Shown here piece after piece: positions 6,322 through 25,727 of a stretch of 36,695 nt of DNA; the first letter of the stretch is position 1, and each line of letters starts with the position of its first letter. The position numbers were made by a program, and so were the translations under genes. Source of the DNA: Methanomassiliicoccaceae archaeon (GTDB taxonomy: Archaea; Thermoplasmatota; Thermoplasmata; Methanomassiliicoccales; Methanomethylophilaceae); contig JAEEJP010000012.1 of the NCBI GenBank assembly GCA_016281925.1, forward strand, positions 1 to 36,695, written 5' to 3'. A model generated the notes under the pieces. It did no database searches. It was not told the origin of the DNA and saw nothing but the letters and a program-made list of their open reading frames with translations.

Positions 6322-7680
6322 TCATGACAGAACCTTTCCAGGCCCCAAATATCCGTACATCCCGCCCAATCTAAGGATGAAAGCGACGGATACGCAGGCA
6401 GTCAGGAATTCGGTCAGAGGCAGGGCAAACCAGATGGCATCGATTCCGAACGCTTCGGGGAGCAGCAGAATCAGCGGGACGAGAAGCACGACAGAACGTA
6501 TGACCGATATGGCTGCGGAGACCCGTCCATTGGACAGCGACGTGAACAGCGAGGACGCGTATACATTGACGCACATGAACAGGAATCCTATCGAATATAT
6601 CGCCGCGCCTGAGACCATTATGTCCGTCACGGACGAGTCCCCGGCGAAGAACTCCGCTATATTCGAGGCGAATATCTCCATTATAGCGAAAGTGACCACG
6701 GAAAGGCAGCCGATGAATGCCATGGATATGCGGAACAGCTCCCCCATGGCCGGACGGTCCCCTTTGCCGTAATCGTATGACATCACAGGCGCCACCCCGT
6801 TGGAATAGCCTATGGCGGCCGCCAGAGCGAGGAAATGCGCGTATGACACGATGGTGATCGCGGAAACCCCGTCCGGCCCCATATAACGCATCATCACGGT
6901 GTTGTAGCAGAGCACCACCAGGCCTCCCGCCAGCTCGCTGGCCATCTCGGACATGCCGTTGGAGCACACGGAAACGATCACCGAGGGGTCTCTGGAAGGG
7001 GAAGAGAAACGGAGGGACATCCTGCCGCGGAAGAACAGTGCGATGCATACCAGAGACGGTACGGCCGACCCTATCCCGCTGGCTATGGCAGCACCGGTCA
7101 GACCCATGCCAAACACGCATATGAAAAGCCAGTCCAGGACGAGGTTGGTCAGCCCGCCGGCCACGGAAAGCGCGAATGACATCCCCGGCCTTTCCGCCAC
7201 TATCAGGAACTGTATCAGGACGAACTGGAGGAACACGAACGGCGCGAACGCTATGTATGCGCGGCCGTATTCCGCCGAGCCAGCTGACAGGGTCTCATCG
7301 GCGCCCATCAGCCCGACTAAGGGATCCATGAACGCAAATCCGAAGACGGCCAGCGCAGAAGAAATCAGAAGCGAAACCAGAGCTATCTCCGAGAAAGAGC
7401 GGTTCGCGCGCTCGGCCTCGCCTTTTCCCAGGAGATTGGCCACATAAGCGCTTCCACCCGTCGCGAACATGAAGCCCATCCCGGTGAGCAGAGAGGCAAG
7501 AGGCATCAGTATGTTGATGGATGCCAAAGCGTCGGTCCCGACGAAATTGGATACGAACGCGCCGTCGACCAGGCTGTAGGTCGAGATGAACATCATCATA
7601 GCAATCGAAGGGACGGCGAACTTCAGGGTCTTTGACCACCCTCTTATCTGTCCAAGCTCGCTTTCAGCGGTCTCGCCCAT
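6322..7680 (-). CDS. MATE-family multidrug/Na+ or H+ antiporter
   Basis: A 452-residue protein of the usual MATE length with about twelve hydrophobic helices in two homologous halves. The first half begins around residue 18 (KTLKFAVPSIAMMMFISTYS) with VDGAFVSNFVGTDALA, typical of MATE helix 1 and the loop after it, in the DinF/MepA-like branch. The second half starts near residue 235 (SNGMSEMASELAGGLVVLCYN). It probably exports cationic drugs or metabolites in exchange for Na+ or H+; the substrate cannot be read from sequence. The start at 7680 has a TATA box (AATATAAACG) about 25 bases ahead and no Shine-Dalgarno, suggesting a leaderless message. It is divergent from the small membrane protein at 7764. 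Confidence 0.93.
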   Translation of the reverse strand: MGETAESELGQIRGWSKTLKFAVPSIAMMMFISTYSLVDGAFVSNFVGTDALASINILMPLASLLTGMGFMFATGGSAYVANLLGKGEAERANRSFSEIALVSLLISSALAVFGFAFMDPLVGLMGADETLSAGSAEYGRAYIAFAPFVFLQFVLIQFLIVAERPGMSFALSVAGGLTNLVLDWLFICVFGMGLTGAAIASGIGSAVPSLVCIALFFRGRMSLRFSSPSRDPSVIVSVCSNGMSEMASELAGGLVVLCYNTVMMRYMGPDGVSAITIVSYAHFLALAAAIGYSNGVAPVMSYDYGKGDRPAMGELFRISMAFIGCLSVVTFAIMEIFASNIAEFFAGDSSVTDIMVSGAAIYSIGFLFMCVNVYASSLFTSLSNGRVSAAISVIRSVVLLVPLILLLPEAFGIDAIWFALPLTEFLTACVSVAFILRLGGMYGYLGPGKVLS

Positions 7681-7763: not shown

Positions 7764-7925
7764 ATGGATCAGACCTGGTATATGGTGGGCGTGGCCGTAG
7801 TCGTCGTAATAATGTGCATCGGCATCCTGGGGATGTACATCGGAAGGGGAAAGAGGAAAGCCCGCCGATCGCATCTGCCTGAGGCGGTTCCGAAGAAAGA
7901 AATGTGGGCCCCTCGGATAAGATAA
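7764..7925 (+). CDS. 53-residue single-pass membrane protein
   Basis: A short frame starting at the ATG at 7764. Residues 6-27 (YMVGVAVVVVIMCIGILGMY) form one strong transmembrane helix, followed by a basic cytoplasmic patch (GRGKRKARR) and about 20 polar residues. That topology suggests an N-out, C-in anchor. A TATA box 27 bases upstream supports independent expression. It ends at a TAA 26 bases ahead of the chelatase-like start. It belongs to no family I recognise. Small membrane proteins often sit beside transporters or exported systems, but no role can be assigned. Confidence 0.6.
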   Translation: MDQTWYMVGVAVVVVIMCIGILGMYIGRGKRKARRSHLPEAVPKKEMWAPRIR

Positions 7926-7930
7926 TTAAA
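7923..7930 (+). promoter_or_regulatory. TATA box of the CbiK-like gene
   Basis: AATTAAAT lies 22-29 bases ahead of the ATG at 7952 with no Shine-Dalgarno between, consistent with a leaderless transcript. It also supports the 7952 start over the upstream ATG at 7904. Confidence 0.45.
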
Positions 7931-7951
7931 TCGGATGCGGTATCACTCCGC

Positions 7952-8725
7952 ATGGTCGAGAACAACAGGACGTACCTGACAGTCAGTTTCGGGGACGTCT
8001 CCGAGCCGATAGAGAGCGCGATTACGGAAAAGCATCCAAATTGCGAGGTCCGCAGGGCATTCACCAGCCGCATCGAGGCCAAGAAGATAGGGGCCGACCA
8101 TATCTCGGACGTCTTCCCTAAGCTCGCCGGCGAAGGCGTGACTCAGCTCACGGTCCAGCCTCTCCACGTGATCAACGGCACGGAATTCGAGATCGTAAAA
8201 GAGGAACTGACGAAGAATCTGGACCTTTTCCAGGACGTCCGCCTGGGCTCGCCGCTCCTGACCTCCGAGAGGGACTACCGCGCCGCCTGCAACGCCATCG
8301 TTAAGGACATAGTCCCCGAGGTGGAGGAATACATCGGCGAAGGCACGACCATCGTTCTCGTCGGCCGCGGATCCGACCATTACGCCAACTCCGCTTACTG
8401 CCAGCTGCAGGAGATGCTGAACCTTTCGGGAGAGGAGGATATCGTCCTCACCACCGTGGAAGGTTTCCCGTCCTATGCCGACACAGCCAAGAAACTGGCC
8501 AAGATGGGCGCGACCGACGTATCCGTGGTGCCGTTCATAGTGGCCTTGGGCGAGGAGGATTCCGAGGAGATAGCCGGGAAGGAGGAGATGTCCCTGAGGA
8601 TGATTCTCAAAGCCGAGGGCTTCAAAGTCAAATGCATCATGAAGAGCCTCGGGGAGCGCCCGGCATTCCAGAGGCTGTTCGCCGACCATGCCGACGCCGC
8701 CGCGATCCTCAAGAAAGAGCAGTGA
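7952..8725 (+). CDS. CbiK-like anaerobic chelatase homologue lacking both catalytic histidines
   Basis: 257 residues, close in length to Salmonella CbiK (264), the sirohydrochlorin cobaltochelatase of anaerobic B12 synthesis. The family signature is clear: YLTVSFG at 8-14, RRAFTSR at 34-40, LHVINGTEFE at 71-80, PLLTSERDY at 101-109, a GxGSxHxANSAY block at 138-149, and a gapless match around 192-216. Of the CbiK metal-site residues, the glutamate of NGxEY is kept (E78), but the GHG histidine (H145 in Salmonella) is R139 and the GDH histidine (H207) is E202. H143 nearby might compensate. Inserting Co2+ or Ni2+ in the usual way seems unlikely; it may bind a tetrapyrrole without chelatase activity. 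A terminator separates it from the nitrogenase-like operon 140 bases downstream. Confidence 0.85.
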   Translation: MVENNRTYLTVSFGDVSEPIESAITEKHPNCEVRRAFTSRIEAKKIGADHISDVFPKLAGEGVTQLTVQPLHVINGTEFEIVKEELTKNLDLFQDVRLGSPLLTSERDYRAACNAIVKDIVPEVEEYIGEGTTIVLVGRGSDHYANSAYCQLQEMLNLSGEEDIVLTTVEGFPSYADTAKKLAKMGATDVSVVPFIVALGEEDSEEIAGKEEMSLRMILKAEGFKVKCIMKSLGERPAFQRLFADHADAAAILKKEQ

Positions 8726-8865: not shown

Positions 8866-10959
8866 ATGTATCGCATCGCATTCTACGGAAAAGGCGGCAT
8901 CGGCAAATCCACCATTTCCGCCAACGTCTCTTATCTCCTGTCGCTGGACGGGAGCACGGTTCTGCATGTGGGATGCGATCCCAAACACGATTCCACAAGG
9001 CTCCTGACGCACGGCAGAAACATCAGGACGTTCTCTTCGGACACTTCGGCGGACCCCATATGCGAAGGCCTCAACGGGATACGCTGCGCGGAATGCGGAG
9101 GCGCTGAGCCGGGAAAAGGATGCGCCGGAAAGGGGATGGAGCTCCTGTTCGACAGGATATCCGGGGAGAACGCCGATTACAGGGTGTGCGACGTCCTCGG
9201 CGACGTTGTTTGCGGCGGATTCTCCGTCCCTGCGAGGGCTGAGAACTGCGATTCCGTCATAATAGTGACGTCCGGGGAGTTCATGTCGCTGTTCGCGGCG
9301 AACAACATCCTCCGCGGGCTCAGGAACATCAACCCGGGAAAGTCGGTGATGGGCATCGCGTTCAACCGCAGAGGAGAGGAGAACGAAGATGCCCAAGTAA
9401 GAAGATTCGCGGATGCCGTCGGCCTGCCGATACTGTGCGATATCCCCCGCTCCAGACTTTTCGCCGAATCCGAGATCTCCGGGGAGGTGCTTTCCAAGTC
9501 GTTCCCCGATTCCCCTGAGACCGGAATCCTCCGCGCGCTGGCCGATGCCATCAGAAGCCGCCCTGAACGCCATCTCCCTAGGCCGCTGTCCGAGAAAGCC
9601 ATGTCAGATCTGGCCGCTGGAAGGCCGATAACCGCGGGCGATGAGGCCGGCAGAAGATCGGACTGCTGCTTCGAAGGGTATGACGCCGAAAGGAACATCA
9701 CATACGTGGGCGAATTCGCCATGCCCGCATGCACTTCGCACGGGGCCGCCGACGGCATAATGAGGATAAAAGACGCCGCCGCGGTGCTTCATGGCCCCAG
9801 GAACTGCGCGTACCTCATGGAGTTCGCCTTCCGGCGCAGAGTGATCAACGGAGCGATGGAACGCGGCGATTATCCGGGATCCCCGGGGATATACAGCACC
9901 GGGCTGGATGCCGACAAAGCTTTCAGGGATCCGGAGGGAATAATCGAAGATACCGTGCTCAGAGCCGCTTCCGACGGATACAGGCACATATTCCTGGTCC
10001 CCACCTGCACATCGGAGATCATGGGCGCCGACCTCACGAAAGAGGCCGGGAAACTTTCGGAGAAGCATTCCCTCGATGTTGCAGCGGTGAATCCGGACGG
10101 ATCTTTCCTATCCAGCAAGTTCGGGGGCACCTTCGGCCTTATGGACGCCCTGATATCACGCATGAAACCCCGGGAAACCGAGAAAGGAACCGTCAACCTC
10201 ATCGCAAGGTGGTTCTACGGCTTAGGCAGAGACAGGAATCTGGCTTCCATCCAGAAGGTCCTGTCGCTGCTGGGCCTGAAAATCAGATTCGGCTTCCTGG
10301 ACTTCGCCACCATGGCGGAGATCGAGGATTTCTGCTCCGCCGAATACGACATACAGATCGGCCGCGCCAAACTCAATTCCCGCATCGGGGAGAGGATCTC
10401 GGAGGCGACAGGAAGAAGGATCCCTCTGGATCTGGATGTGCCTGTAGGATTGAGCGGCTGCCTGGAGTGGGTTGACGCCCTCTCCGAATATGCTCCGGAG
10501 CTCGCCCCGATGGCGGAATCCGCGAAGGATTCGCTGAGAGCCGAATTCGAATCCATCGTGGGGAAGTACGGGCAGAAGATCCGCGGCAAAAAGGTGGCCA
10601 TCTATTGCGAGATGGTGCGGGACCTGAAATGGCAGGTGGATACGCTCAGGGCCCTCGGCGCCGACATAAGGGCGGTGCTGTTCTCGGACGGGCCGGTGAT
10701 AGACCACAACGTCCGCATCCCGGATTACGGCGGGATAAGGACGGAAAGCGGGAAGAATCTGTGCGACCTCAGAAAGCTGGCCGACGAAGACAGCATAGAT
10801 CTGGTGGTGACGAACGATTCGGACCGGGTCCGCCGCCAGGGATTCAGATATGCCCCGCTGGGATCGAGATATTATGGCCTGGACGGCGTGGAGGATTGGA
10901 CGGCTTCCCTGGCCGACAGCCTCGATTCCCCCATCCCTTCATGGGAGGGAGGGCTATGA
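8866..10959 (+). CDS. NifH-NifD fusion: nitrogenase-like reductase and catalytic-subunit-like protein
   Basis: 697 residues joining two normally separate subunits. Residues 1-255 are NifH/BchL/CfbC-like: P-loop GKGGIGKS at 8-15, GCDPKHDST at 36-44, and cluster cysteines C86 (GCAGKG) and C116 (GDVVCGGF), which equal NifH C97 and C132. The ADP-ribosylated arginine of CAGRG is lysine. After a linker (about 256-285), residues 286-697 are NifD/BchN/CfbD-like, with three cysteines at the P-cluster or [4Fe-4S] positions: C289 (PACTSHG), C314 (GPRNCAY) and C381 (PTCTSEIMGADL). I see no equivalent of the NifD FeMo-co ligands C275 or H442. The ATG at 8866 is preferred over an upstream TTG because it matches NifH N-termini. 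The partner gene overlaps by ATGA. An ATP-driven two-electron reductase is likely, but the substrate is unknown. Confidence 0.9.
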   Translation: MYRIAFYGKGGIGKSTISANVSYLLSLDGSTVLHVGCDPKHDSTRLLTHGRNIRTFSSDTSADPICEGLNGIRCAECGGAEPGKGCAGKGMELLFDRISGENADYRVCDVLGDVVCGGFSVPARAENCDSVIIVTSGEFMSLFAANNILRGLRNINPGKSVMGIAFNRRGEENEDAQVRRFADAVGLPILCDIPRSRLFAESEISGEVLSKSFPDSPETGILRALADAIRSRPERHLPRPLSEKAMSDLAAGRPITAGDEAGRRSDCCFEGYDAERNITYVGEFAMPACTSHGAADGIMRIKDAAAVLHGPRNCAYLMEFAFRRRVINGAMERGDYPGSPGIYSTGLDADKAFRDPEGIIEDTVLRAASDGYRHIFLVPTCTSEIMGADLTKEAGKLSEKHSLDVAAVNPDGSFLSSKFGGTFGLMDALISRMKPRETEKGTVNLIARWFYGLGRDRNLASIQKVLSLLGLKIRFGFLDFATMAEIEDFCSAEYDIQIGRAKLNSRIGERISEATGRRIPLDLDVPVGLSGCLEWVDALSEYAPELAPMAESAKDSLRAEFESIVGKYGQKIRGKKVAIYCEMVRDLKWQVDTLRALGADIRAVLFSDGPVIDHNVRIPDYGGIRTESGKNLCDLRKLADEDSIDLVVTNDSDRVRRQGFRYAPLGSRYYGLDGVEDWTASLADSLDSPIPSWEGGL

Positions 10960-12254
10960 ACTGCCGGCCGGACGGAATGATGGGCGCCATAATCGCGTCG
11001 GAATCGCTCGGTCTCACGGACACTCTGATCAACGGGGCCGGCGGATGCCGCTCGAGAGCCCAGATAATGATGCACGACCTGATTCCGGAATACTATCCGG
11101 AGAACAGGGCATGCTCCAGATCGAAATACTTCAGCAGGCAGTCCCGCCTTCCATGCACCTATCTCGGCAACGACGACATCGTTTTCGGGGCTTCCGCCAA
11201 GGTATCTGGCGGGATAGAATCGGTATCATCCATCACCGGCAGGAAAGCCGTGCTCCTGGATACGCTGGGCGCCTCCCTTATATGCACGGATTATTCTGGC
11301 CTGACAGGCTCGGCCGGGAAAGATCCCATAATTCTGGACGGGGATCTGTCGGGGATGACCATGCCGGAAGGTTACGATGCGGCGACATCCGCGATCCTAT
11401 CCTCCGCTGAAATCGGGGACAAAGGAAACGGCGGGGTCAACATCCTCGGATACGGCCTGATGGATCTGGGCTGGCAGACCGGTGCCGAAGAGATCCGCCG
11501 CCTGCTGGAGCCGATGGGGGCCGGGGTCAATTGCATCCTGGGCTGCATTCCCGGCAAGGAATCGCTGATGGGATGCGGCGGAGCGGAGCTGAACGTCATG
11601 ATCCACCCGGAATACTGCCGCCGCACCGCCGAGATGATGCGCTCAAGGTTCGGGATCCCGTTCCTGAGACCTTCTGAAGGCTCACCAGTGGGATATCCTG
11701 CGTCCAGAGCTTTCGTCAAGGAAGTCGCGGACGCCCTCGGCCTGGATTCCTCTCCTTCGCTGGATCTCATCGACCGCGACGCGGAAGCCGTCCATAGGGT
11801 TCTGATGAATTATGAGAGGATCCCGAGGTCCCTGCATTCGGAAGGCCTGTCCGTGGAAGGAGATTCCTCGACGGTCTATCCCCTTGCGAAATGGATTTCG
11901 GGGCTGTTCGGAATGGTCCCCAGGATTATGCGCCCCCATGACGGAGAATATCTGCCGGAGATACGCTCGTATCTGGAGTCGAACGGATTCGGAAGCGCCC
12001 TGGAAGGCTCCGAAGGGAACATCGAGGCCTATTTCACGGACGGGCTGGCCGCTCTAGAAGGGAATCTGTCCAGATCCACTGCGGCCTACGTCGAGATATC
12101 CATGCCGAGAGGGAGGCCCCTCGATCTCATGGGCAGGACCCTGATCGGGACTGAAGGCTGCAGATACCTTCTCGACAGCCTGATGAACGGGCTGAGAAGG
12201 TTCAGGTGCGGCCAGCCGGAAGAAATTGAGTACCGCCCAGGCCAAAGCGTATAA
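10956..12254 (+). CDS. NifK/NifE/BchB-like component-1 partner of the NifH-D fusion
   Basis: 432 residues of the nitrogenase component-1 family (NifK/NifE/NifN/BchB/BchZ). The start at 10956 overlaps the previous stop as ATGA and has a GGGAGGGA Shine-Dalgarno. C3 (CRPDGMMGA) aligns with NifK C70 (CQPLGA), and C31 in GAGGCRSRAQ with C95 in GPxGCVAY. LPCTYLGNDDIVFGAS at 66-80 matches the NifK SMTEDAAVFGG segment. The third NifK cysteine (C153, TTCMAEVIGDD) is replaced by leucine in LDTLGASLI, leaving only two of three ligands. NILGYGLMD near residue 165 begins the central Rossmann-like domain. It probably pairs with the D part of the fusion as a heterotetramer with a simple [4Fe-4S] cluster rather than a P-cluster. 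The substrate cannot be read from sequence. Confidence 0.85.
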   Translation: MNCRPDGMMGAIIASESLGLTDTLINGAGGCRSRAQIMMHDLIPEYYPENRACSRSKYFSRQSRLPCTYLGNDDIVFGASAKVSGGIESVSSITGRKAVLLDTLGASLICTDYSGLTGSAGKDPIILDGDLSGMTMPEGYDAATSAILSSAEIGDKGNGGVNILGYGLMDLGWQTGAEEIRRLLEPMGAGVNCILGCIPGKESLMGCGGAELNVMIHPEYCRRTAEMMRSRFGIPFLRPSEGSPVGYPASRAFVKEVADALGLDSSPSLDLIDRDAEAVHRVLMNYERIPRSLHSEGLSVEGDSSTVYPLAKWISGLFGMVPRIMRPHDGEYLPEIRSYLESNGFGSALEGSEGNIEAYFTDGLAALEGNLSRSTAAYVEISMPRGRPLDLMGRTLIGTEGCRYLLDSLMNGLRRFRCGQPEEIEYRPGQSV

Positions 12255-12277: not shown

Positions 12278-13897
12278 ATGTTCGGCGCGGAAAGAATAGG
12301 GACATGGATCAGGGCAGAGTTTGTCCTTTTTGTCTCTGTTCTTCTCGCTCTGATTTCGATGGCTTTCGTGCCGCCGTCGGCGGGTTATCTGGACTACATC
12401 GACGTCCCGATGCTCTGCATCCTGTTCTGCCTCATGGCATCCGTAGCCGGGATGTCCGAATGCGGAGTGTTCAAGGCAGCCGCGTCGTGGATGGTCGGAA
12501 AGACAGGCTCTGCCCGCAGGATCTGCCTGGCGCTGGTTGCCCTGCCTTTCTTCGCGTCGATGGCGATAACCAACGACGTCTCGCTGATAACCTTCGTCCC
12601 TCTGGCCGTCGCTGTCCTTTCCGGCATAGACAGAAAGGACATGATAGCCCCTGTCCTGGTGCTCCAGACCGTCGCGGCGAACCTGGGGTGCATGCTCACG
12701 CCCATCGGAAGCCCCCACAATCTGTTCGTCTGCTCGAAGTATTCCATAGGCTTCGGGGACATGGTCTCGGTGATGCTCCCATATCTGGCTATCGGCGGCG
12801 CGGCGCTGTTCGCATCATGCGCGATAATTTGCCGCGGGGAATCGCCGAAACCGGATTCCGGGGATCATAAAGCAGAGAACATGCCTCTGCTGACCGCTAT
12901 GGCAGCCGTGTTCGCACTCAGCGTGCTGGCGGTATCCGGGACCGTCCCCTACTGGGCGGCCCTCATATGCGCCGCCGCCGCAATGGCAGCGTTCAAGCCG
13001 TCCCTGTTCGGAAAAGTCGATTACAGCCTGCTGCTGACGTTCGTGTTCCTGTTCATATTCACCGGGAACCTTTCAGAGATGGAATCGGTGGCATCATTCC
13101 TGGGAGGGCTGATGGGATGGGATCCGATGCTGGTCCCGGCTCTTGCCAGCCAAGGCATCAGCAACGTGCCGGCCGCTGTCCTCCTCTCGAATTTCACCGA
13201 CGACTGGCAGAGCCTTCTTGTCGGTGTGAACGTGGGGGGGTTCGGGACCCCTATAGCTTCGATGGCGTCGCTGATAACGTTCAGGCTGTACGCGAAAGAA
13301 AAGGAGCATGACGAAAAAAGATTCGCCGGAATCTTCCTCCTGGCCAACGCCATAGCCTTCGCCCTTCTGGCCGCGGCTTATTACGCGATGGGATCGGCCG
13401 GATTCCGATCGCATCATCCCCGCATCGGGATCGGTATCCGTTGCGGTGGACTCTTTCGGGCTTGTATCTTCCGTCCTTGTGCTCCGGCCTCGTTCTGGGA
13501 TGCCCGACCGCGATCAGGCAGAACGGCTTCACGCTGTCAGGAAGGTTCAGAGCCTTCGATACGGCGTCCATCCTGTCCTGGTGGGGCGCGATCCCTATCC
13601 AGACGGTGCCTATGCCACGCGACGTGGCTGCCAGAAGGATGTTCTGGGTCGCAGCCGCGAGATCCTGCTGCCACATCATCGGCGTCTTCATCAGGCCGAT
13701 GTTCCCGAGGACGGCGATGGCCAGAGGGGCCCTGCCCACCGGGGATGCGTACGGAGCGGCATGGGACAGCTCCTCCAGCATCTTTATGTCGTCTACTATG
13801 CAGAATTCCCAGCACTGCTGGTTCATGGCGGACGGGGCTGCCATCGCGGCCCTCATCAGAAGATCCTGGTCCTCCATTTTTATGGGCTCACCGGTGA
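12278..13897 (+). CDS. ArsB/CitMHS-type anion permease with an out-of-frame C-terminal tail
   Basis: The genuine part is about 375 residues with ten or so membrane helices of the ion-transporter superfamily (CitMHS, ArsB, NhaD, SLC13). Diagnostic repeats are TNDVSLITFVPLAV near 91, TPIGSPHNLFV near 142, and the second-half SNVPAAVLLSNF ... GVNVGGFGTPIASMASLI near 290-330. The last helix (IFLLANAIAFALLAAAYYAMG) ends near 13390. Beyond that the frame continues for about 160 residues of Arg/Pro/Ser/Cys-rich sequence that is the antisense of the nitroreductase gene and is almost certainly not selected. It begins 23 bases after the NifK-like stop, so co-expression is likely and it could move the substrate or product of that enzyme. 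The transported anion is unknown. Confidence 0.8.
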   Translation: MFGAERIGTWIRAEFVLFVSVLLALISMAFVPPSAGYLDYIDVPMLCILFCLMASVAGMSECGVFKAAASWMVGKTGSARRICLALVALPFFASMAITNDVSLITFVPLAVAVLSGIDRKDMIAPVLVLQTVAANLGCMLTPIGSPHNLFVCSKYSIGFGDMVSVMLPYLAIGGAALFASCAIICRGESPKPDSGDHKAENMPLLTAMAAVFALSVLAVSGTVPYWAALICAAAAMAAFKPSLFGKVDYSLLLTFVFLFIFTGNLSEMESVASFLGGLMGWDPMLVPALASQGISNVPAAVLLSNFTDDWQSLLVGVNVGGFGTPIASMASLITFRLYAKEKEHDEKRFAGIFLLANAIAFALLAAAYYAMGSAGFRSHHPRIGIGIRCGGLFRACIFRPCAPASFWDARPRSGRTASRCQEGSEPSIRRPSCPGGARSLSRRCLCHATWLPEGCSGSQPRDPAATSSASSSGRCSRGRRWPEGPCPPGMRTERHGTAPPASLCRLLCRIPSTAGSWRTGLPSRPSSEDPGPPFLWAHR

Positions 13898-13940
13898 AAT
13901 CCCTCACGCTGACCCTGTCGAAAATCAGATTAGCGGTCAT
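13281..13940 (-). CDS. Nitroreductase-family FMN oxidoreductase with a 3' extension
   Basis: The conserved part, about 168 residues, is a typical small nitroreductase. It has RVSVRDFTGEPI at 9-20, APSAMNQQCWEF near 36-47 (FMN phosphate and isoalloxazine contacts), the helix DLAAATQNILLAATSRGIGTVWIG, and the ending RYKPERVHRN. FMN-dependent hydride transfer with NAD(P)H is expected; the substrate is undefined. After VHRNGY the frame runs another 50 residues through the convergent permease gene to a TGA at 13281, so the native stop seems to be lost. The ATG at 13940 overlaps the stop of the YqaJ-like gene as ATGA, indicating translational coupling. Confidence 0.85.
   Translation of the reverse strand: MTANLIFDRVSVRDFTGEPIKMEDQDLLMRAAMAAPSAMNQQCWEFCIVDDIKMLEELSHAAPYASPVGRAPLAIAVLGNIGLMKTPMMWQQDLAAATQNILLAATSRGIGTVWIGIAPHQDRMDAVSKALNLPDSVKPFCLIAVGHPRTRPEHKDGRYKPERVHRNGYRSRCGDDAIGIRPIPSRNKPRPEGRRLWRWPGGRFRRIFFRHAPFLSRTA
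13400..13439. terminator. Imperfect inverted repeat at the permease/nitroreductase junction
   Basis: GGATTCCGATC (13400-13410) pairs with GATCGGTATCC (13429-13439) with one mismatch across an 18-base loop. It lies where both coding regions should end, so it may be a remnant of a bidirectional terminator. There is no T-run on either side. Confidence 0.35.
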
Positions 13941-14719
13941 CTCTTCTTCCTCTTGAACGCTTTGAGATACTTCAGCACTTCCTGGTCGCATTCGGAATCC
14001 GTCCATTCCGGCGTGTATCCGTTCTTCATGTAGGTGCCGTACCACTCCTCGCACTTCGCCATGATGGGCCTCATGTCCAGCTTTTCCTTGACGATAACGA
14101 AGGTATTGTCCTCGTTCGGGACCCATTGCTTCGGGCGGTCATAATCGGATTCCTCCAGGAAACCTACGAGGAAGACGATCCTATCCAGGCCGGAAAGCTC
14201 GGCGTACAGGGACGCCTGATACATGTATTGCATCGGAACGTTGGTGTATCCTCCGCTTCCGTCCTCCCATTTCTCTCTCACGCCGGACGTTTTGATCTCG
14301 AGGATCGTATTCCTGACGTTGTCTATCCTGATGTATCCGTCCACGAGGCCGCCGAACAGCTTCTCGCCGTGGAAATGGTCGTATCCGCATTGCTCCATCG
14401 GGACAGGCTCCTCCACGGATGCGAATGATCCCTCAGGAATTCCGAGAGGACCCCTGAGCATGGCGTTCGCATGGGTCCCGAGATAATCCCTCAGCACCGG
14501 CTCGAGGATGTTCCCGGCATCGATGTATTTGGTCGGTTTGTCCCCGGGATAAAGGCCGGCAAGCTCGCAGGCGACCTTGAAAGGGGAAGAGAAATCGATT
14601 TCGCCCAGTATGGGCCCGATGCGCGTCCCGGTCATCTTCTTCAGTTTATAGGTATCGAAATACACCGTGCGCTCATCGTCGTCGATGTCTTCGATTCCCA
14701 TTCTTCCGTCATAAGCCAT
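13937..14719 (-). CDS. YqaJ/lambda-exonuclease-like PD-(D/E)XK nuclease
   Basis: About 260 residues from the ATG at 14719. Nuclease motifs occur in order: the glutamate of GNILEPVLRDY near 77, GGLVDGYI near 143 (motif D), LEIKTS near 160 (the ExK of PD-(D/E)XK) and the QYMYQASLYAELSG helix near 185. This order is that of YqaJ viral recombinase and lambda exonuclease, which degrade one DNA strand 5' to 3' for recombination. A helix before the catalytic core (YFDTYKLKKMTGTRIGPIL) resembles the YqaJ N-terminus. The frame is open upstream without a stop as far as a TAG at 14924, so it is in frame with the preceding methyltransferase. No other phage gene is nearby. The start is uncertain (14701 and 14788 are alternatives). 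Confidence 0.8.
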   Translation of the reverse strand: MAYDGRMGIEDIDDDERTVYFDTYKLKKMTGTRIGPILGEIDFSSPFKVACELAGLYPGDKPTKYIDAGNILEPVLRDYLGTHANAMLRGPLGIPEGSFASVEEPVPMEQCGYDHFHGEKLFGGLVDGYIRIDNVRNTILEIKTSGVREKWEDGSGGYTNVPMQYMYQASLYAELSGLDRIVFLVGFLEESDYDRPKQWVPNEDNTFVIVKEKLDMRPIMAKCEEWYGTYMKNGYTPEWTDSECDQEVLKYLKAFKRKKR

Positions 14720-17215: not shown

Positions 17216-20200
17216 TTACGCCGGGACCAATTTGGTCGCCTTGCCGACGAAAGTCATCCCCGACAGGGAATCGGCCGAGACGGAGATCCTCTTCCCGGCT
17301 TCCGGATCCCAGAACAGGCAGCCGTAGAACGAATTGCTCGTGACCGAGGATATCTCCCCGAAAGCGATTCTCTTGAGGCCCATGCATCTGTAGAACGCGC
17401 TGATCCCTATGCTCACGCCGTCGCAGAATTCCAGGGATTCCAGCGATGAGCAGCCGTAGAACGCGTATCCTTCGATCTTTTCCACGCCGCTCAGGGACGC
17501 CGACGCCAAAGACCTGCAGTTGGCGAACGCTTTCAGCCCTATGGCTCTGACATCGCCCAGATCGGCGGCGGTCAGATCCGCACATCCGTAGAACGCCTTC
17601 GTCCCTATTTCAGAAACAGAGAAGTCGAATCCCAGGTACCTGACCGATTTCGGGACGGCCAGACTCACGGGGGCCCCGCCTTCGTATCCGGTGAGGCTGG
17701 CTTCGGATCCGGAGATCAGCCTGTATTTCAGCCCGTCCGAAGAGAATTCCTCCCCTGCCGACGGCCTGTAAAGGGTCAGCGACCTGGAGCTTCCGGTAAA
17801 TCTGTGCCTCGCCAGCTGGTCGTCCCCCATCAGTTCGCCGTCCTCGGAATAGAATTTGGTCCCTATGAACGAATTCTTCCCCATCCTGAACGATTCCGGG
17901 AAGGTCACGTCGGAAAGGCTCCTGCAGCCGTCGAATATGTTTGTTCCCAAAGAAGTCTCCCCGGTGAATTCAATGGTCTTCAGATTGGTGCAGGAGTAGA
18001 ACGCGAAGAAATAGACGGATCCGCGTATTCTGAGAGACTCTAGATTGGAGCAGTACGGGAACGATTTGTATCCCACTTTGCCCACCGCGGAAAGGTCCGC
18101 CGTCACAATGGATTTGTTCCCGCTGAATGCCCTGTCGCCTATGCTTTCCACGGAATAAGACGCACCGCCGTATTCTATGGATTCCGGTATCACCAGATTC
18201 TTCCCGTAAGTTTTGGAGCAGCCGGTGACTTCCACCGCGTTGCCTCCGTCGTCCGAGCGCAGTATCGTATAGTAAAGGCCGTCGAGCAGGAAAGTGGAGC
18301 CAACCCCCACCGGACCGTATTGGGCATAGAAGCTCATGTCGGATTCGGGGACCAGCAATTCCCCGGCCACATAGTCCTTCCCGGTGCCGTCCGGCTCGGT
18401 GTTCCAGCTCCTGAACTCGGATCCGTCCGGTATCGGCGTCCCTTCGCGGATCCCCGGGAATGTCATGTCCTTTCCGGTTATCCAGATCTCCCGGTCCACC
18501 GTGCAGCTCTCCAGTACGCTGATCTCCCCGGTGACCGTCGTCCTCATGGTGCCCCTGTTGTTCAGAAGCTTCACGACGGCCGAGAATCTGTGCTTCCCTA
18601 TCTGCTCGAATGTGGGCTCCGCGACCAGCAGGGTCCTGTCGGCTGTGGAGCCGTCGGCATCGCATCTCATCCATCCTTCGGCCCCGGCAATGGATTTCAC
18701 GCCGAACATATCCTGCTGGGAAGTCCTGTTCAGAGCGAGGAACAGCTTCTGGCCGGCGGCTACCTCGAATTTCCCGATGTCGACTGTTCTGCCGTGGATT
18801 CCGGCGTCGGCCTCGGCGTAAGTATCCCATCCGGATTCGGCCATGTTGTAGAAGCTGAGCACATAGAATTCAGCGATGTCGTAATCCCTCATGGTGAACG
18901 TTCCGAAAGAAGCGCTTCTGGGACCGGATTCGCGCTCCTCCTCCGGCACACGGTGGGAACCGAACGAAGGGCATACTCCCGACGATGAGATCTCGAATCT
19001 GATGCTGATCCTCTGCCCCGGGACGACGTCCTGGGGGATCGTGACGGTGTCGAACGCCCCGTCTCTGCCGCAGACATACTTCTCGCCGAAGATCTCCATG
19101 GTCAGAGATGTATCCGCCCCGTATGGCTGGGCCGATGCCGGGACGCGGATCCCGGTGGCGAAGAAGCTTATCCTGTCCCCGGGCATGAACGACACCACCG
19201 ATCCGCTGTCCTGGTTGACCGCGTACATATGCATCTTCATGCCTCTGACGACTTGGTATGAGACTTTGCCGTCTTCTTCGACGGACACGATGTTCGGACC
19301 TGCGACGATCTTGGCGCGGCACCATGTATCGGACGCTCCCGTGGGGGATTTCGAGAACGATGCTATGCTGCCGCCTTCGAACACCGGATTGTACTGGAAC
19401 GATTTTCCGGCGTATTTCTTGTCGATGTACAGCAGACCTCTGGAGTAGGCGTCGGGATAATACAATACGTCCAGATCGGAATCGAAATGGTTTCCGCAGT
19501 CCCTGCCCGAGCCGCCGGTCTTGCTCTGCTTCACGCCGATATCCGGCCCGGCTCCGTCTCCGACGGTGACCACGAACAGGCCTGTGCATTCCGGGGACGT
19601 GGCGCTTAGAAGCTTGTCCTCCATCCCCGGGACGTTCAGATACCTCACGGAAATGGCGTCGCATGATATCAACACGAAGGCAGTGCCGTCCCTGGCCGCG
19701 GACATCCTGTTCCCGTCGAATTCCACCGCATCGCTCTCCCCTCCGTCGGGAGACATAGCGCGGAAGGAAAACTGCGGCCTAAGGAAGATCCCGTATCTGA
19801 AGTCGTCGTCGGTGTATGTGTTCCTCTGGGGATTGATCTCGAACGTGTCCCCTTCCTGCATCCTCAGGAACCCTTCGGCGTTGATGTTCAGCAGCACCTC
19901 CGACGGGCGGGCCGCATCGATCTCGTCTTTCGGATGCGATTCCATCTCTTCACGTGTGATAGCGGCCTTCAGCCCTTTCTTCATGACCATCACGCAGCAT
20001 GCATCGGCGCAGCCCTCCAGCGATACGCGGAACCCGTAGGTGTATCCGGGTATCAGCCTGTAAGAAAGGGCTGTCTCGTCGCCGGCTGTCTCGCTGGAGA
20101 TCGGCCTGATGGGGAACGGCGCGGCCCTGCCGGAAGATTCCATCCCCATGACCGTCTCCGATCCGGAAGGCACCGTAAGCATGAATTCGTATGCCGCAGG

Positions 20201-20755
20201 CAGGACGGACTTGTATGACGGTTTGACCGAGGACAGCGTCAGTGCCCTGTATACGGGGCAGAACCCGTGCGCGGCCCTCTCGTCCGTCGGTATGAACGTG
20301 ACCTCGGCCAGATCGCCCTTGTCTGCGACGATCTTCATCCCATTATCGCCTTCTGAAATGGGATTGAACGATGCCTTGCCTTTGTTCAGCAGGATCGATT
20401 CCCCATAGTCCGGCCCGTATTTCCACCCGGAATTGCCGGCGGATATCGTGGTGGCGAAGAACCTGTGCGTCCCTCCTGCCTCAGCGTCTATCTCTTTCTG
20501 ATAGTAGATGTTCCCTTCCGCGTCGCGGACGGACATGGTATATTTCCCTGGCTCCAGAGATGCGGCCGTTATGCGGTCGCAGATGCTGACGGCGCAGACT
20601 TCCTCACCTCCGGAGGCGAACACCGCTTCCGCCTGGAACGGAAGCGATCCGCTCACTTTCGTCTGGCACGCATCCCCTTCCGAATCCGGGGAAGGCACCA
20701 GTAGCATGATGGCAGCCGCCAGCAGGACGGCCGCCGCGATAAGTTTCTTTGTCAT
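17216..20755 (-). CDS. Large secreted BspA-type leucine-rich-repeat surface protein
   Basis: About 1179 residues from the ATG at 20755, chosen because a signal peptide follows at once (MTKKLIAAAVLLAAAIMLLV) and a GAGG lies 7 bases ahead. The first 780 or so residues are beta-rich extracellular sequence with no family I recognise. Around 780-845 is an InlB/Flg_new-type B-repeat (FRSWNTEPDGTGKDY, MSFYAQYG). From about 850 to the end are BspA-type LRR_5 repeats with the recurring AFYGCADL/AFANCRSL/AFYGCSSL pattern. There is no C-terminal membrane helix, so it is secreted or held non-covalently. Such proteins mediate attachment or interaction with other microbes in gut archaea. A hairpin terminator follows. 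Confidence 0.88.
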   Translation of the reverse strand: MTKKLIAAAVLLAAAIMLLVPSPDSEGDACQTKVSGSLPFQAEAVFASGGEEVCAVSICDRITAASLEPGKYTMSVRDAEGNIYYQKEIDAEAGGTHRFFATTISAGNSGWKYGPDYGESILLNKGKASFNPISEGDNGMKIVADKGDLAEVTFIPTDERAAHGFCPVYRALTLSSVKPSYKSVLPAAYEFMLTVPSGSETVMGMESSGRAAPFPIRPISSETAGDETALSYRLIPGYTYGFRVSLEGCADACCVMVMKKGLKAAITREEMESHPKDEIDAARPSEVLLNINAEGFLRMQEGDTFEINPQRNTYTDDDFRYGIFLRPQFSFRAMSPDGGESDAVEFDGNRMSAARDGTAFVLISCDAISVRYLNVPGMEDKLLSATSPECTGLFVVTVGDGAGPDIGVKQSKTGGSGRDCGNHFDSDLDVLYYPDAYSRGLLYIDKKYAGKSFQYNPVFEGGSIASFSKSPTGASDTWCRAKIVAGPNIVSVEEDGKVSYQVVRGMKMHMYAVNQDSGSVVSFMPGDRISFFATGIRVPASAQPYGADTSLTMEIFGEKYVCGRDGAFDTVTIPQDVVPGQRISIRFEISSSGVCPSFGSHRVPEEERESGPRSASFGTFTMRDYDIAEFYVLSFYNMAESGWDTYAEADAGIHGRTVDIGKFEVAAGQKLFLALNRTSQQDMFGVKSIAGAEGWMRCDADGSTADRTLLVAEPTFEQIGKHRFSAVVKLLNNRGTMRTTVTGEISVLESCTVDREIWITGKDMTFPGIREGTPIPDGSEFRSWNTEPDGTGKDYVAGELLVPESDMSFYAQYGPVGVGSTFLLDGLYYTILRSDDGGNAVEVTGCSKTYGKNLVIPESIEYGGASYSVESIGDRAFSGNKSIVTADLSAVGKVGYKSFPYCSNLESLRIRGSVYFFAFYSCTNLKTIEFTGETSLGTNIFDGCRSLSDVTFPESFRMGKNSFIGTKFYSEDGELMGDDQLARHRFTGSSRSLTLYRPSAGEEFSSDGLKYRLISGSEASLTGYEGGAPVSLAVPKSVRYLGFDFSVSEIGTKAFYGCADLTAADLGDVRAIGLKAFANCRSLASASLSGVEKIEGYAFYGCSSLESLEFCDGVSIGISAFYRCMGLKRIAFGEISSVTSNSFYGCLFWDPEAGKRISVSADSLSGMTFVGKATKLVPA

Positions 20756-20838
20756 ATCACAGCCTCGGCCTCGGGAACCGCGGGATTCCTTCGGCACCGG
20801 GCTCTGGCTGTGGGCGCTTATATCGGGATCGCGTGCGG

Positions 20839-21414
20839 TCACGCATCATCCGGGTATGTCCTGTACCAGAACACCCCGAAGCATTGGCATGGGGCCCCGC
20901 AGATTGGGCAGTTGTGCCCTCCCGGAGATGACACCATCCTGTTCCAGTATCCGCGCAGGGCTATGGTCTCGGACAGCCCCATTCCGGTCAGCACCCCGGC
21001 TATGTTCGTCTTTCCGCTGACGCTCTTCCAGGCCATGGCGCAGATCATCGTGCACCCTCCGGCCAGCATCTCTTCAGCGGACCTTCCGCACAGGAGCGTC
21101 CCGATCCCCCTGCCTTTCATCCCCTCTTTTATCGAGACCGAATCCAGAAGGCCTATCTTCCTCTGCCGCATCACCTCGTCCCTCTCGGGGCAGTCCGGGA
21201 GCCCCAAGGCATCCGGCTCCTCTTCCGGCGGGAACATGCGGCAGACCGCGAAACCTACCGGCACGCCGTCCGCCGATGCGACGTTGCAGAACTGTTCCGG
21301 ATCGTCCATCGCGCGGCGGAAATCCGATGCGTCCAGATAGTCTGACCCGAGTTCCCTGAGAGAAATCTCTAAAACAGCCGGGATGTCCTCCTCCCTGAGC
21401 CTGCGGATCTCCGT
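20839..21414 (-). CDS. GNAT-family N-acetyltransferase without a canonical start codon
   Basis: About 190 residues. The fold is GNAT: IRRLREEDIPAVLEI opens the first strand and helix, VGFAVCRMF is strand 4, and RGIGTLLCGRSAEEML is the acetyl-CoA pyrophosphate loop (R/QxxGxG/A). Further on are MVSSPGGHNCPICGAPCQC, with cysteines that could bind zinc, and a short C-terminus. The coding region begins where the pseudouridine synthase ends but in another frame, and there is no ATG, GTG or TTG near the expected start; an AGGAGG lies at 21426-21431. The given start (ACG at 21414) is a placeholder for the earliest residue of the domain. Either a non-standard start, a frameshift from the upstream gene or a sequence error explains this. 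The substrate is unknown. Confidence 0.7.
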   Translation of the reverse strand, partial: TEIRRLREEDIPAVLEISLRELGSDYLDASDFRRAMDDPEQFCNVASADGVPVGFAVCRMFPPEEEPDALGLPDCPERDEVMRQRKIGLLDSVSIKEGMKGRGIGTLLCGRSAEEMLAGGCTMICAMAWKSVSGKTNIAGVLTGMGLSETIALRGYWNRMVSSPGGHNCPICGAPCQCFGVFWYRTYPDDA

Positions 21415-23508: not shown

Positions 23509-24315
23509 TCTGCTCCCGCCCATGTCCCTGCGATAGGATGAATGCCCGGAATCGGATTCGATGTCCACCCTGATGTCTGCGGTATCGTCCCTGCCGGTCC
23601 ACCTGCAGTACATCTCGTCCCCTTCCCTCACATCGTCCTCCCGGCCGTCGAAAATGAAATCGGCGACGGTGACCGAGCCGACCCTGGATAAGACGCGGAT
23701 GGAAGCGCCGGATTCTATCCAGTCATGGACGAAATGCGCATCCAGAACCATCGAAAGCACGGAATTCCCGATTATAGTAGAGGAATCTATCGCAAAGATG
23801 CCGGGGTCATACCGCTGGGCTATGCCTGTGTCGCGCATCTCTACATCTCCGGACATCGAAACGTGGCCTGATATCCGTCCTGAATCCTTCTGGGAGTACT
23901 TCTCGAACGGAAACGCATCGCCGACGATCTCCCTGTCGAAAGCTATGAAACCGCCTTTATCCGCCTTGATCTCCGCGTATATGTCGAATTCCAGATGGTA
24001 TCTGTATTCAGATGCGATCCAGCGGGCTTCACCGCCCCTCCCTTCCTGGGAATCCGAAGAGAAATCCAGGCCGAAGCTTATGCCGCGCATAGACACGGAA
24101 ATGGGGCATCCCTTCCCGGTAGCTATTATCCCGGCCGACTCCAGTGCCCCGCGGCAGACCATGTCCCTGTAATCGCTCCCGAAAACAGCGTCGAAATCTT
24201 CTTCCGGCAGGGATTCGTATGAAACCCCGAAATCGGATGCCGCATCTGTCTGGACGCAGGAAACGGCGGCCAGGACGGCGGCGGCGAATGACAGAACCAG
24301 CGCAGAACGCTTCAT
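23110..24315 (-). CDS. Exported membrane-anchored protein coupled to a BspA-type gene
   Basis: 401 residues from the ATG at 24315, chosen because a signal peptide begins there (MKRSALVLSFAAAVLAAVSC) and it overlaps the upstream stop as ATGA. The middle is an extracellular domain of about 300 residues rich in Asp/Glu/Ser and beta strands, and no family is recognised. A single membrane helix (MSLIAAFLLLLVAFHG) near the end is followed by FRRRSLRR, giving an outside domain with a short cytoplasmic tail. The last 35 or so residues (ILAEQESPRIHRIHPVDQL) overlap the pirin gene and may be spurious. Tight coupling to the leucine-rich-repeat protein suggests they act together at the surface. Confidence 0.78.
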   Translation of the reverse strand: MKRSALVLSFAAAVLAAVSCVQTDAASDFGVSYESLPEEDFDAVFGSDYRDMVCRGALESAGIIATGKGCPISVSMRGISFGLDFSSDSQEGRGGEARWIASEYRYHLEFDIYAEIKADKGGFIAFDREIVGDAFPFEKYSQKDSGRISGHVSMSGDVEMRDTGIAQRYDPGIFAIDSSTIIGNSVLSMVLDAHFVHDWIESGASIRVLSRVGSVTVADFIFDGREDDVREGDEMYCRWTGRDDTADIRVDIESDSGHSSYRRDMGGSRSGTSHGAVMGSMLHDASPEKEVSGQGEVSSRYIGEFIRGETVRGYLSDDGMEPDFGHVRMDADYLLPAMSLIAAFLLLLVAFHGMHEGLFRRRSLRRHLSGAILAEQESPRIHRIHPVDQLPWPALQLLLPY

Positions 24316-25727
24316 CGGCTTACCTTCATGTATCCGCTGGCAGAGCGGTCGTAAACGAAATCTCCGCGGACGTAGTAGTTGCTGGCCATCCTGGTACCAT
24401 CGGCCGAATAGAACGTCTCGGACAGGGACGCCTGGATGGGGAACGCATAGCCGCCTATGGATAATCCGCCTTTCCCCGAGAATGTTATTTCCTTGATGGC
24501 GGAGCAGCTCCAGAACGCCTCGCCGCCGATGGAAACTATGGCCGCGGGAAGAACAACGGACGTGAGCGATGAGCACCCGGCGAATGCCCTGTCGCCGATA
24601 GATCCGAGGTCGCCAGGCAGGGAGATGCTTCCCAGCGAAGAGCATCCCTCGAAAGCCCTCGGGCCTATTTCCGATACGGACCCGGGAAGGGATGCCTCTT
24701 TGAGCGACGAACAGCCGAAGAACGCCGAATCGCATATCCTTGCCACATCCTCCGGGATGGCGGCCGATATCAGGGAGGAGCAGCCGTAGAACGCCTTGTC
24801 CCCGATCTCCGTCATGCGCATGGGCATCTTCGCGCTGGCCAGCGAGGAGCATCCCTGGAACGCACCCGAGATGTCGGCTATTCTGGGCGGTATGACCGCT
24901 TCCTTAAGCGACGAGCATCCGCTGAAAGCGTTCCAGCCGATCGACTCCAGGTTATCCGGGAGGTCGATGGAAACCAGCGAGGAGCATCCCTGGAACGCGC
25001 CCGCGCCGATGGACACCACGGACTGCGGCATCGAAACCGATGACATCCTGGAGCATCCGTTGAAGGCATAATTCCCGATCTCGGTTATCCCGTCGGGAAT
25101 GCATACGGATTCCACCCAGCTTCTGTCGAAACCGAACAGCTGGCTGGATTCGCCCTTCGATATCGACGATACCGTGGACGGCAGGATCACTTCGCCCCTG
25201 TAAGCTTCCCTCCAAGCTATCCTGGAAATGGAATCCCCGTCGAATGTGAATACATAGGCCTCCTTCCACGCTCCACCGGAGAAACAGTATGCCGCCCCCG
25301 GCTCTGCTCTGGAAATTCCGTTTCCGCCGATCATGCCGGATGATATGGAAAGGGTCCCGTCCAAAGCGTTGATAATCGTGATGTCGCCGGGGCCGTCTAT
25401 GATCCGGGAAGTTCCGTTCAAAGAGACGCTTCCGGCGCCGGAGAATGTCAGAGATTTCAGCGAAGAACATCCTGAGAAAGCCCCGCCTCCGATGGACAGA
25501 ATCCCCGACGGAATGGTCATGTGCCTGAGATTCTCGCATCCCGAGAAGGCTCCCGAGGATATCGATACGGTTCCGCTGGGAAGAGTAAGCGAAGACAGAG
25601 ACAGGTCGCCGGGACGGGGCGCAATCTCCTCGGCTTCCTCTTCATTTCCGGCCAAGACTGCCGCGGCGGAAGCTATGATCGCGGCCGCGACCGCAATAGC
25701 GATGGCCGCTTTCGTGGACATGACCAT
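24312..25727 (-). CDS. BspA-type leucine-rich-repeat surface protein
   Basis: 471 residues. The N-terminus is a signal peptide or anchor (AAIAIAVAAAIIASAAAVLAG), followed by an acidic linker and then 12 or more LRR_5 units of about 23 residues with the pattern AFxGCSSLxSxxLPxxvxSIG. The repeats are almost pure from residue 215 to 420, and a degenerate block (about 105-190) separates two leading repeats from the main array. The repetitive DNA makes the array prone to recombination. There is no C-terminal anchor, but the next gene, coupled by ATGA, encodes a membrane-anchored partner. Such proteins are common in gut Methanomassiliicoccales and resemble Bacteroides and Treponema adhesins. A TATTAATAAAA element about 30 bases upstream fits a promoter. 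Confidence 0.9.
   Translation of the reverse strand: MVMSTKAAIAIAVAAAIIASAAAVLAGNEEEAEEIAPRPGDLSLSSLTLPSGTVSISSGAFSGCENLRHMTIPSGILSIGGGAFSGCSSLKSLTFSGAGSVSLNGTSRIIDGPGDITIINALDGTLSISSGMIGGNGISRAEPGAAYCFSGGAWKEAYVFTFDGDSISRIAWREAYRGEVILPSTVSSISKGESSQLFGFDRSWVESVCIPDGITEIGNYAFNGCSRMSSVSMPQSVVSIGAGAFQGCSSLVSIDLPDNLESIGWNAFSGCSSLKEAVIPPRIADISGAFQGCSSLASAKMPMRMTEIGDKAFYGCSSLISAAIPEDVARICDSAFFGCSSLKEASLPGSVSEIGPRAFEGCSSLGSISLPGDLGSIGDRAFAGCSSLTSVVLPAAIVSIGGEAFWSCSAIKEITFSGKGGLSIGGYAFPIQASLSETFYSADGTRMASNYYVRGDFVYDRSASGYMKVSR

Follow-up and report, generated by a model that had tools for sequence, protein, structure and literature searches.

A widespread nitrogenase-like family with a fused NifH–NifD subunit has members beside genes for corrinoid uptake and salvage

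The window, a 36,695-nucleotide stretch of a Methanomassiliicoccaceae contig, contains two overlapping plus-strand genes for a nitrogenase-like protein, here called HDK. The first, an intact open reading frame (8866-10959, stop codon 10957-10959), encodes a 697-residue protein in which a NifH-type domain is joined to a NifD-type domain. The H domain (8866..9600), a NifH-type ATPase or Fe protein, matches Pfam Fer4_NifH over residues 3-250 (210 bits) and retains the P-loop motif YGKGGIGKST (codons 8887-8913) and both H-cluster cysteines, C86 (9121-9123) and C116 (9211-9213). Its AlphaFold2 model resembles NifH structures with a TMt of about 0.80-0.85. The D domain (9730..10959), the catalytic alpha-type subunit, matches Oxidored_nitro over residues 289-654 (138 bits), and its C289, C314 and C381 (codons 9730-9732, 9805-9807 and 10006-10008) align with the three P-cluster-type cysteines of NifD. 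The HD stop codon overlaps the start of the second gene as ATGA. This gene (10956-12254) encodes a 432-residue K-type subunit (Oxidored_nitro, 81 bits) whose best fold match by structure comparison is BchB of the protochlorophyllide reductase DPOR, with a TM score of about 0.7. Three cysteines in D are thus accompanied by a single invariant cysteine in K, C31 (codon 11046-11048), an arrangement in which one intersubunit cluster is likely held by three D cysteines and one K cysteine. This architecture agrees with the original prediction, made from the sequence alone, of a complete NifH-type reductase fused to a NifD-type subunit and followed by a K/E-type partner.

The H and D domains are separated by a largely disordered linker (9601..9729), with pLDDT values below 50 across residues 258-287 in the AlphaFold2 model of HD. 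The pTM of 0.60 for this model leaves the relative placement of the two domains unsure. Across the family, the linker measures between about 41 and 127 residues. The suggestion that a covalent H–D link challenges the usual docking-and-release cycle is accordingly weak, as a disordered linker of variable length would permit a tethered version of that cycle. Purifying selection acts on both the HD and K reading frames (dN/dS about 0.13-0.24; dS is close to saturation) and the fused form is kept in more than 100 loci, which together exclude chance or a sequencing artefact such as a frame break between H and D.

Rather than a lone oddity, HDK is a widespread family that forms a distinct branch of the nitrogenase superfamily. 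Fused HD is found at well over 100 loci. Most genomes of the archaeal order to which the window belongs encode full-length fused HD with K, often in multiple copies per genome; the combination is rare in Clostridia, Spirochaetia and other methanogens. The phylogenies that the original prediction called for place the fused D sequences in one clade and the fused K sequences in another (support 100), both set apart from NifD/E/K/N and from Bch sequences, although the Bch rows in these trees are long-branched; the H parts separate from CfbC. The fusion itself received a passing mention in 2014, when an ORB table named a 'fused nifH/nifE' of Ca. Methanomassiliicoccus intestinalis as a landmark (PMC4153887). 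That fusion very probably belongs to the same family as the window HD, and the passages of that paper that mention it give no function, partner or B12 link.

We compared HDK with the characterized members of the superfamily. CfbC/CfbD, the Ni-sirohydrochlorin a,c-diamide reductive cyclase of F430 synthesis, likewise pairs a NifH-type ATPase with a NifD-type [4Fe-4S] partner for tetrapyrrole chemistry in the same organisms, and CfbC is the best model for the window H part. However, that match reaches 225 bits against a cut-off of 402, and CfbD is homodimeric, shorter, unfused and lacks a K partner. The genome also carries a separate cfb set, in which CfbA, CfbD (376 bits against a cut-off of 268) and CfbE exceed their curated cut-offs and CfbB and CfbC are best matches below theirs. 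An F430 role for the window HDK is therefore rejected, as the original prediction had anticipated. Nitrogen fixation, which it had considered unlikely, is rejected as well, because the NifD FeMo-co ligands Cys275 and His442 have no counterpart in the aligned window D. The methylthio-alkane reductase MarHDK (group IV-A; PDB 9fmg/9d9u) shares the HDK composition, and 9d9u chain C is the best sequence match of the K profile. Passages of PMC12552129 describe this enzyme as working with nitrogenase metalloclusters. Judged on NifD-type FeMo-co ligands, which HDK lacks, and on a corrinoid rather than sulfur gene context (no sulfur genes were seen in the inspected HDK neighbourhoods), this identity is also rejected. 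Similarity to all three enzymes is at the level of the superfamily, and that HDK is any one of them is hardly credible. DPOR (BchLNB) and COR (BchXYZ) offer a functional parallel as three-component, ATP-driven tetrapyrrole reductases without FeMo-co; the K fold is nearest BchB, and related HDK loci carry a BchH/CobN-type chelatase with ChlI/D. In HDK, by contrast, H is fused to D and the link is to B12 uptake and salvage instead of chlorophyll. HDK scores far below the cut-offs of the BchL/N/B and BchX/Y/Z models and forms a separate clade, with the caveat of the long Bch branches. BchB of DPOR provides an aspartate cluster ligand where the K subunit of HDK has its invariant cysteine, and COR is closer in this respect.

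The gene context of relatives connects HDK to B12. Of 16 bacterial fused loci, 5 have a cobalamin riboswitch (RF00174) upstream in the same orientation, where 0.15 would be expected from the measured riboswitch density (P about 2e-7). The same element also precedes sister HDK operons without the fusion, in Phascolarctobacterium faecium, in Sporomusa acidovorans and in one MAG each of the Negativicutes and the Bacillota. The association is not universal: the remaining 11 bacterial fused loci, among them most of those in Lachnospiraceae and that of Clostridium tetanomorphum, lack a nearby riboswitch, and their neighbours are mixed. No cobalamin riboswitch was found at the archaeal fused loci, yet these have the same gene partners as the bacterial ones. 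Salvage partners (BtuFCD, CobU, CobT, CobS, CbiR/CbiZ, CobN) occur at L187, L058, L052, L158, L070 (P. faecium), L085 and L098. In the spirochaete locus L187, HD and K are embedded in an operon reading riboswitch-BtuB-BtuF-BtuC-BtuD-HD-K-CobU-CbiR-CobT-CobS, in which CbiR and CobT, along with an upstream CobQ, score above cut-off; L058 has the same layout. At L158, HDK is surrounded by CobN (above cut-off), ChlI/D, a CbiZ/CbiS-like protein and FecCD, and Methanoregula L052 has the same set by Pfam (CbiZ, FecCD, a substrate-binding protein (SBP) and CobN). CobN also lies near HDK in Dialister and, with a CbiZ/CbiS-like protein, in P. faecium. In Sporomusa, HDK, FecCD and an ATPase gene are followed downstream by the adenosyltransferase CobA (above cut-off). 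In single-contig archaeal genomes, 9 of 11 HD genes have FecCD no more than 9 kb away against 1.3 expected, so that chance proximity in FecCD-rich genomes can be rejected. One further candidate partner, the L055 gene at 845-1882, was considered as a CbiR but discarded, being a TIM barrel with no NCBIfam match.

These neighbourhoods and riboswitches indicate that the substrate reduced by HDK at the expense of ATP is most likely a B12-type molecule and not nitrogen. The absence of FeMo-co ligands and the likeness of the K fold to a tetrapyrrole reductase support this reading. Among the substrates that the original prediction had proposed, a tetrapyrrole, specifically a corrinoid, gains support from the neighbours of relatives, whereas nothing supports a methylthio-alkane. 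We infer a cluster type, substrate and reaction as follows. The HD fusion and K would form an (HDK)2-type reductase in which a ferredoxin-type donor passes an electron to a [4Fe-4S] cluster bridging two H domains. Hydrolysis of MgATP would push the electron onto the [4Fe-4S] cluster held by D and K, and from there to a metallo-tetrapyrrole bound between the two subunits, as in DPOR and CfbCD. Such an enzyme would act in cobamide uptake and salvage, most plausibly converting Co(II) to Co(I) on a corrinoid that has been imported or freshly metallated, ready for adenosylation by a CobA-type transferase, a proposal to which we give roughly even chances. HDK would then be the anaerobic counterpart of CobR, downstream of CobN/ChlID. 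Co(II) reduction is not the sole reductive step that salvage could involve, and sequence alone cannot separate reduction of the cobalt from reduction of the ring.

Our literature searches (open-licence PMC papers) found no published link between HDK and corrinoids, and the association is new here. CobR and the corrinoid reductive activases RamA/RACE likewise reduce Co(II) to Co(I) at low potential, the latter with ATP. CobR is a flavoprotein and RamA/RACE is an ASKHA ATPase, and neither fold is related to HDK. If the proposal is correct, HDK would add a third solution, one of the nitrogenase type. In its full form, which we hold somewhat less firmly than the reductase assignment, a self-tethered H–D protein and K would work with CobN/ChlID to make Co(I) for adenosylation in anaerobes, would occur in nearly all gut methanogens, in multiple copies, and also in gut bacteria, and would have diversified in the window subclade towards another metallo-tetrapyrrole. 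A nitrogenase-like machine within the B12 gene set would connect three questions: where strict anaerobes and methanogens obtain Co(I) corrinoids for adenosylation, what aerobic-type CobN chelatases do in anaerobes, and why Methanomassiliicoccales have so many BtuC clades (PMC10804542). It would also extend the nitrogenase superfamily by one branch and bear on corrinoid competition in gut and rumen, where methylotrophic methanogens require cobamides for methane formation. P. faecium DSM 14760, S. acidovorans and C. tetanomorphum DSM 4474 are cultivable and offer a direct test.

We weighed several other reactions. The strongest contender, although we consider it unlikely, is that HDK acts on the ring itself of a tetrapyrrole taken up from outside (a corrinoid precursor, a haem- or chlorophyll-derived ring or a Ni-hydroporphyrin), reducing it in the manner of DPOR, COR and CfbCD, with CobN/ChlID handling the metal before or after. 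The BchB-like K fold fits this idea, the combination of CobN (a BchH homologue), ChlI/D and HDK resembles the pairing of BchHDI with BchLNB, and the presence of several HDK copies in one genome, next to different FecCD importers, hints at more than one ring substrate. However, known corrinoid salvage includes no such step, and the operons with CbiR, CobU, CobT and CobS (L187, L058) serve finished corrin rings. Importers, CbiZ/CbiR remodelling enzymes and chelatases would also suit the reductive removal or exchange of an axial ligand or metal of imported corrinoids (compare CblC decyanation and dealkylation) that does not feed an adenosyltransferase. This is improbable, as simple thiol- or flavin-dependent proteins perform such reactions without ATP, making a nitrogenase-type machine costly, and CobA beside HDK in Sporomusa better matches Co(I) supply. 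The Peptococcaceae locus L056, where a riboswitch lies immediately 5′ of HD-K in an operon with no other cob gene, would instead fit a B12-independent stand-in for a corrinoid enzyme, induced at low B12. We judge this very improbable, since most linked loci contain importers, remodelling enzymes or chelatases in place of a B12-dependent counterpart, and the archaeal loci keep these partners with no such riboswitch found.

Under the Co(I)-supplying model, the window copy would be a divergent paralogue, presumed to perform the same reaction on a related tetrapyrrole. Its own substrate is less certain than that of the family because it belongs to a fast-evolving subclade (branch lengths of 1.19 changes per column for D and 1.01 for K) and has no adjacent importer; beside it we found no functional cob gene, and a riboswitch search of the window returned no cobalamin riboswitch. 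Just upstream of HD lies a CbiK-like gene of the class II chelatase family (7904..8725, plus strand; Pfam CbiK, 157 bits). Relative to L148, its motifs GHGTEHHAN and GDHANND read GRGSDHYAN and GEEDSEE, and those of orthologues L141 and L142 are likewise changed. The gene is probably degenerate, with its chelatase motifs lost, which weakens its candidacy as an active partner. An SBP–FecCD importer and an ArsR-type methyltransferase adjoin 4 of 14 members of this subclade, and together with the long branches and the degenerate CbiK-like neighbour this raises the prospect that its substrate is now a metal chelate or metallophore other than a corrinoid. Such a shift is rather doubtful, somewhat more so than ring reduction by the family: all cluster residues are retained, and the close orthologue L142 still sits beside a FecCD importer and a CbiK-like gene. 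The window copy is otherwise flanked by a MATE-family transporter (6322..7680, minus strand; Pfam MatE), also near L141 and L142, and by a CitMHS-type anion transporter (12278..13897, plus strand; Pfam CitMHS), which follows K at L141 and L143 as well.

The window encodes a 697-residue NifH-NifD fusion (HD; 8866-10959, forward strand), with a NifH domain at residues 3-250 and a nitrogenase component 1 domain at residues 289-654, and a second component 1 protein (K; 10956-12254, forward strand) whose gene overlaps that of HD by ATGA, in the reading frame originally predicted. The H part retains the P-loop and both cluster cysteines, and the D part keeps three cysteines that correspond to P-cluster ligands of NifD, as foreseen; the FeMo-co ligands are absent as well, with no counterpart of Cys275 or His442 found in the window D. 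Across an alignment of archaeal and bacterial members, Cys31 is the sole invariant cysteine of K. The three kept D cysteines and this single K cysteine would be expected to hold a [4Fe-4S] cluster together.

Residues 258-287 of the H-D linker have pLDDT <50 in the predicted HD model, and H-to-D spacing ranges from ~41 to 127 residues across the family. Where the original prediction saw a covalent challenge to docking and release, a simpler reading of this low-pLDDT, length-variable linker is a flexible tether that would raise local concentration. With such a tether, each D2K2 complex would be served by no more than one H2, except where complexes share. Ten HD genes from other genomes of the order (L194-L203) contain exactly one internal stop, which is TAG in 10/10 and falls within the short H-D linker in 4/10. 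The order encodes pyrrolysine, so read-through may switch these copies between free H and fused HD.

Some HD-profile match occurs in 145 of the 147 genomes of the window's order, most of which carry full-length fused copies, up to several each. Judging by the named matches, this order is probably Methanomassiliicoccales. Outside the order, fused HD+K was found in Methanoregula, Methanosarcina KYL-1, Clostridium tetanomorphum DSM 4474, Sporobacter, Peptococcaceae, Treponema, Lachnospiraceae and others; counted as open single frames, bacterial examples are rare (5/391, 6/299, 2/297 and 1/295 sampled genomes). When D and K are placed in one tree, fused D falls into one clade (99) and fused K into another (100), both separate from NifD/E/K/N and Bch; nearest to them are the unfused HDK (separate H, D and K) of Negativicutes, Methanomicrobiales and a Bacillota MAG. 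The H parts group together (97) and stand separate from both NifH and CfbC; one fusion, from Myxococcota (L062), is placed outside. The few 'unfused' rows inside are copies that are interrupted or cut off by a contig end. This placement of the H parts agrees with the original view that the operon is not CfbC/D.

Besides the pair in the window, its genome (1.96 Mb in 122 contigs, 86% complete) has two HD+K pairs, on contigs 29 and 97, and an additional K at the end of contig 66 that is almost identical to that of Ca. Methanomethylophilaceae L051. FecCD-type importer genes directly follow the contig 29 pair and adjoin the contig 66 K. Contig 20 carries a separate cfb set (CfbC, CfbA-CfbA-CfbE, CfbD and CfbB), in which CfbD, CfbA and CfbE score above curated cut-offs; CfbB and CfbC, identified as best matches, stay below theirs. 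F430 synthesis is thus covered, which excludes the CfbC/D alternative for the window locus. Here CfbE (F430 synthase) shares a single open reading frame with both copies of CfbA (nickelochelatase) (L014:8298-10310).

Within 9.5 kb of 46 archaeal loci, we found FecCD permeases near 29, ABC ATPases near 30, binding-protein-like genes near up to 25 (two clusters, 18 and 7), CobN at 8, ChlI/D at 6 and CbiZ at 4. Of the 11 HD genes in seven single-contig genomes, 9 have a FecCD gene <=9 kb away, against 1.3 expected from random positions. The Methanoregula locus L052 and loci L157-L159 carry CbiZ, ChlI/ChlD, FecCD, ATPase, HD, K and CobN. Three loci (L015:13731-17459, L129 and L130) contain secreted binding-protein-like ORFs of ~1240 aa that adjoin FecCD and HDK and bear an Asp-rich dockerin-like stretch at the N-terminus; members tested gave no Pfam or NCBIfam match.

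In bacteria, a same-strand cobalamin riboswitch precedes the HD operon at five of 16 fused loci (L055, L056, L058, L060 and L187), against an expectation of 0.15 (P about 2e-7) given 103 cobalamin riboswitches, over or near cut-off, in the ~41 Mb of these 16 genomes. The spirochaete operon L187 runs riboswitch, BtuB-like, BtuF-like, BtuC-like, BtuD-like, HD, K, CobU, CbiR, CobT and CobS, with CobQ upstream (CobQ, CbiR and CobT above curated cut-offs); L058 has the same layout. Strong cobalamin riboswitches also lie upstream of unfused sister HDK operons in Phascolarctobacterium faecium DSM 14760 (L070), a Bacillota MAG (L074), Sporomusa acidovorans (L085) and a Negativicutes MAG (L098). Partners of such operons include CobN (L070 and L079), a CbiK-type protein (L085 and L098), CbiZ/CbiS-like proteins and, in Sporomusa, CobA adenosyltransferase.

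H-type proteins spend ATP to pass low-potential electrons to the [4Fe-4S] cluster of a D-K type partner. Corrinoid adenosylation needs Co(I), at a potential of about -0.5 to -0.6 V, and the known steps following CobN-type cobalt insertion are Co(II) reduction (CobR) and then adenosylation (CobA/CobO). DPOR, COR and CfbD act on tetrapyrroles, and the main rival reading is that HDK reduces a tetrapyrrole ring instead; the company of CobN/ChlID, CobA and CbiZ/CbiR suggests an anaerobic corrinoid reductase, which would act on Co(II) between cobalt insertion (CobN/ChlID) and adenosylation (CobA). In the open-licence literature, we found no paper that connects a nitrogenase-like enzyme with cobamide salvage or with cobalamin riboswitches, and by that measure the link of HDK to salvage appears to be new. 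The fusion is already named in passing in PMC4153887 (2014), and a study of the order (PMC10804542, 2024) stresses five BtuC clades, leaving nitrogenase homologues unmentioned.

The window copy is one of 14 sequences in a long-branched subclade. Each of the 12 intact members checked retains all P-loop, H-cluster and D-cluster residues, and dN/dS between the window copy and its two closest orthologues is ~0.13-0.24. FecCD lies near 6 of the 14, including the close orthologue L142, and is absent near the window copy itself. Upstream of HD, a CbiK-like protein (7904-8725) has altered chelatase motifs (GHG to GRG, GDHANND to GEEDSEE); the alterations are common to two orthologues, and the lost residues are kept in the L148 protein. 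Could this be a repurposed tetrapyrrole-binding protein? With long branches, no nearby FecCD and this altered neighbour, the corrinoid role of the window HDK is therefore presumed from family membership. Four subclade loci (L145, L146, L151 and L152) adjoin SBP-FecCD and a SAM methyltransferase with an ArsR-type HTH domain, which may point to a modified or different substrate.

Downstream, a CitMHS ORF (12278-13897) exceeds the length of its L141 orthologue by ~168 residues, with a tail antisense to a nitroreductase gene (13281-14126); this suggests that a stop was lost or the frame shifted. Two BspA-type leucine-rich-repeat proteins are encoded at 17216-20842 and 24312-25727.
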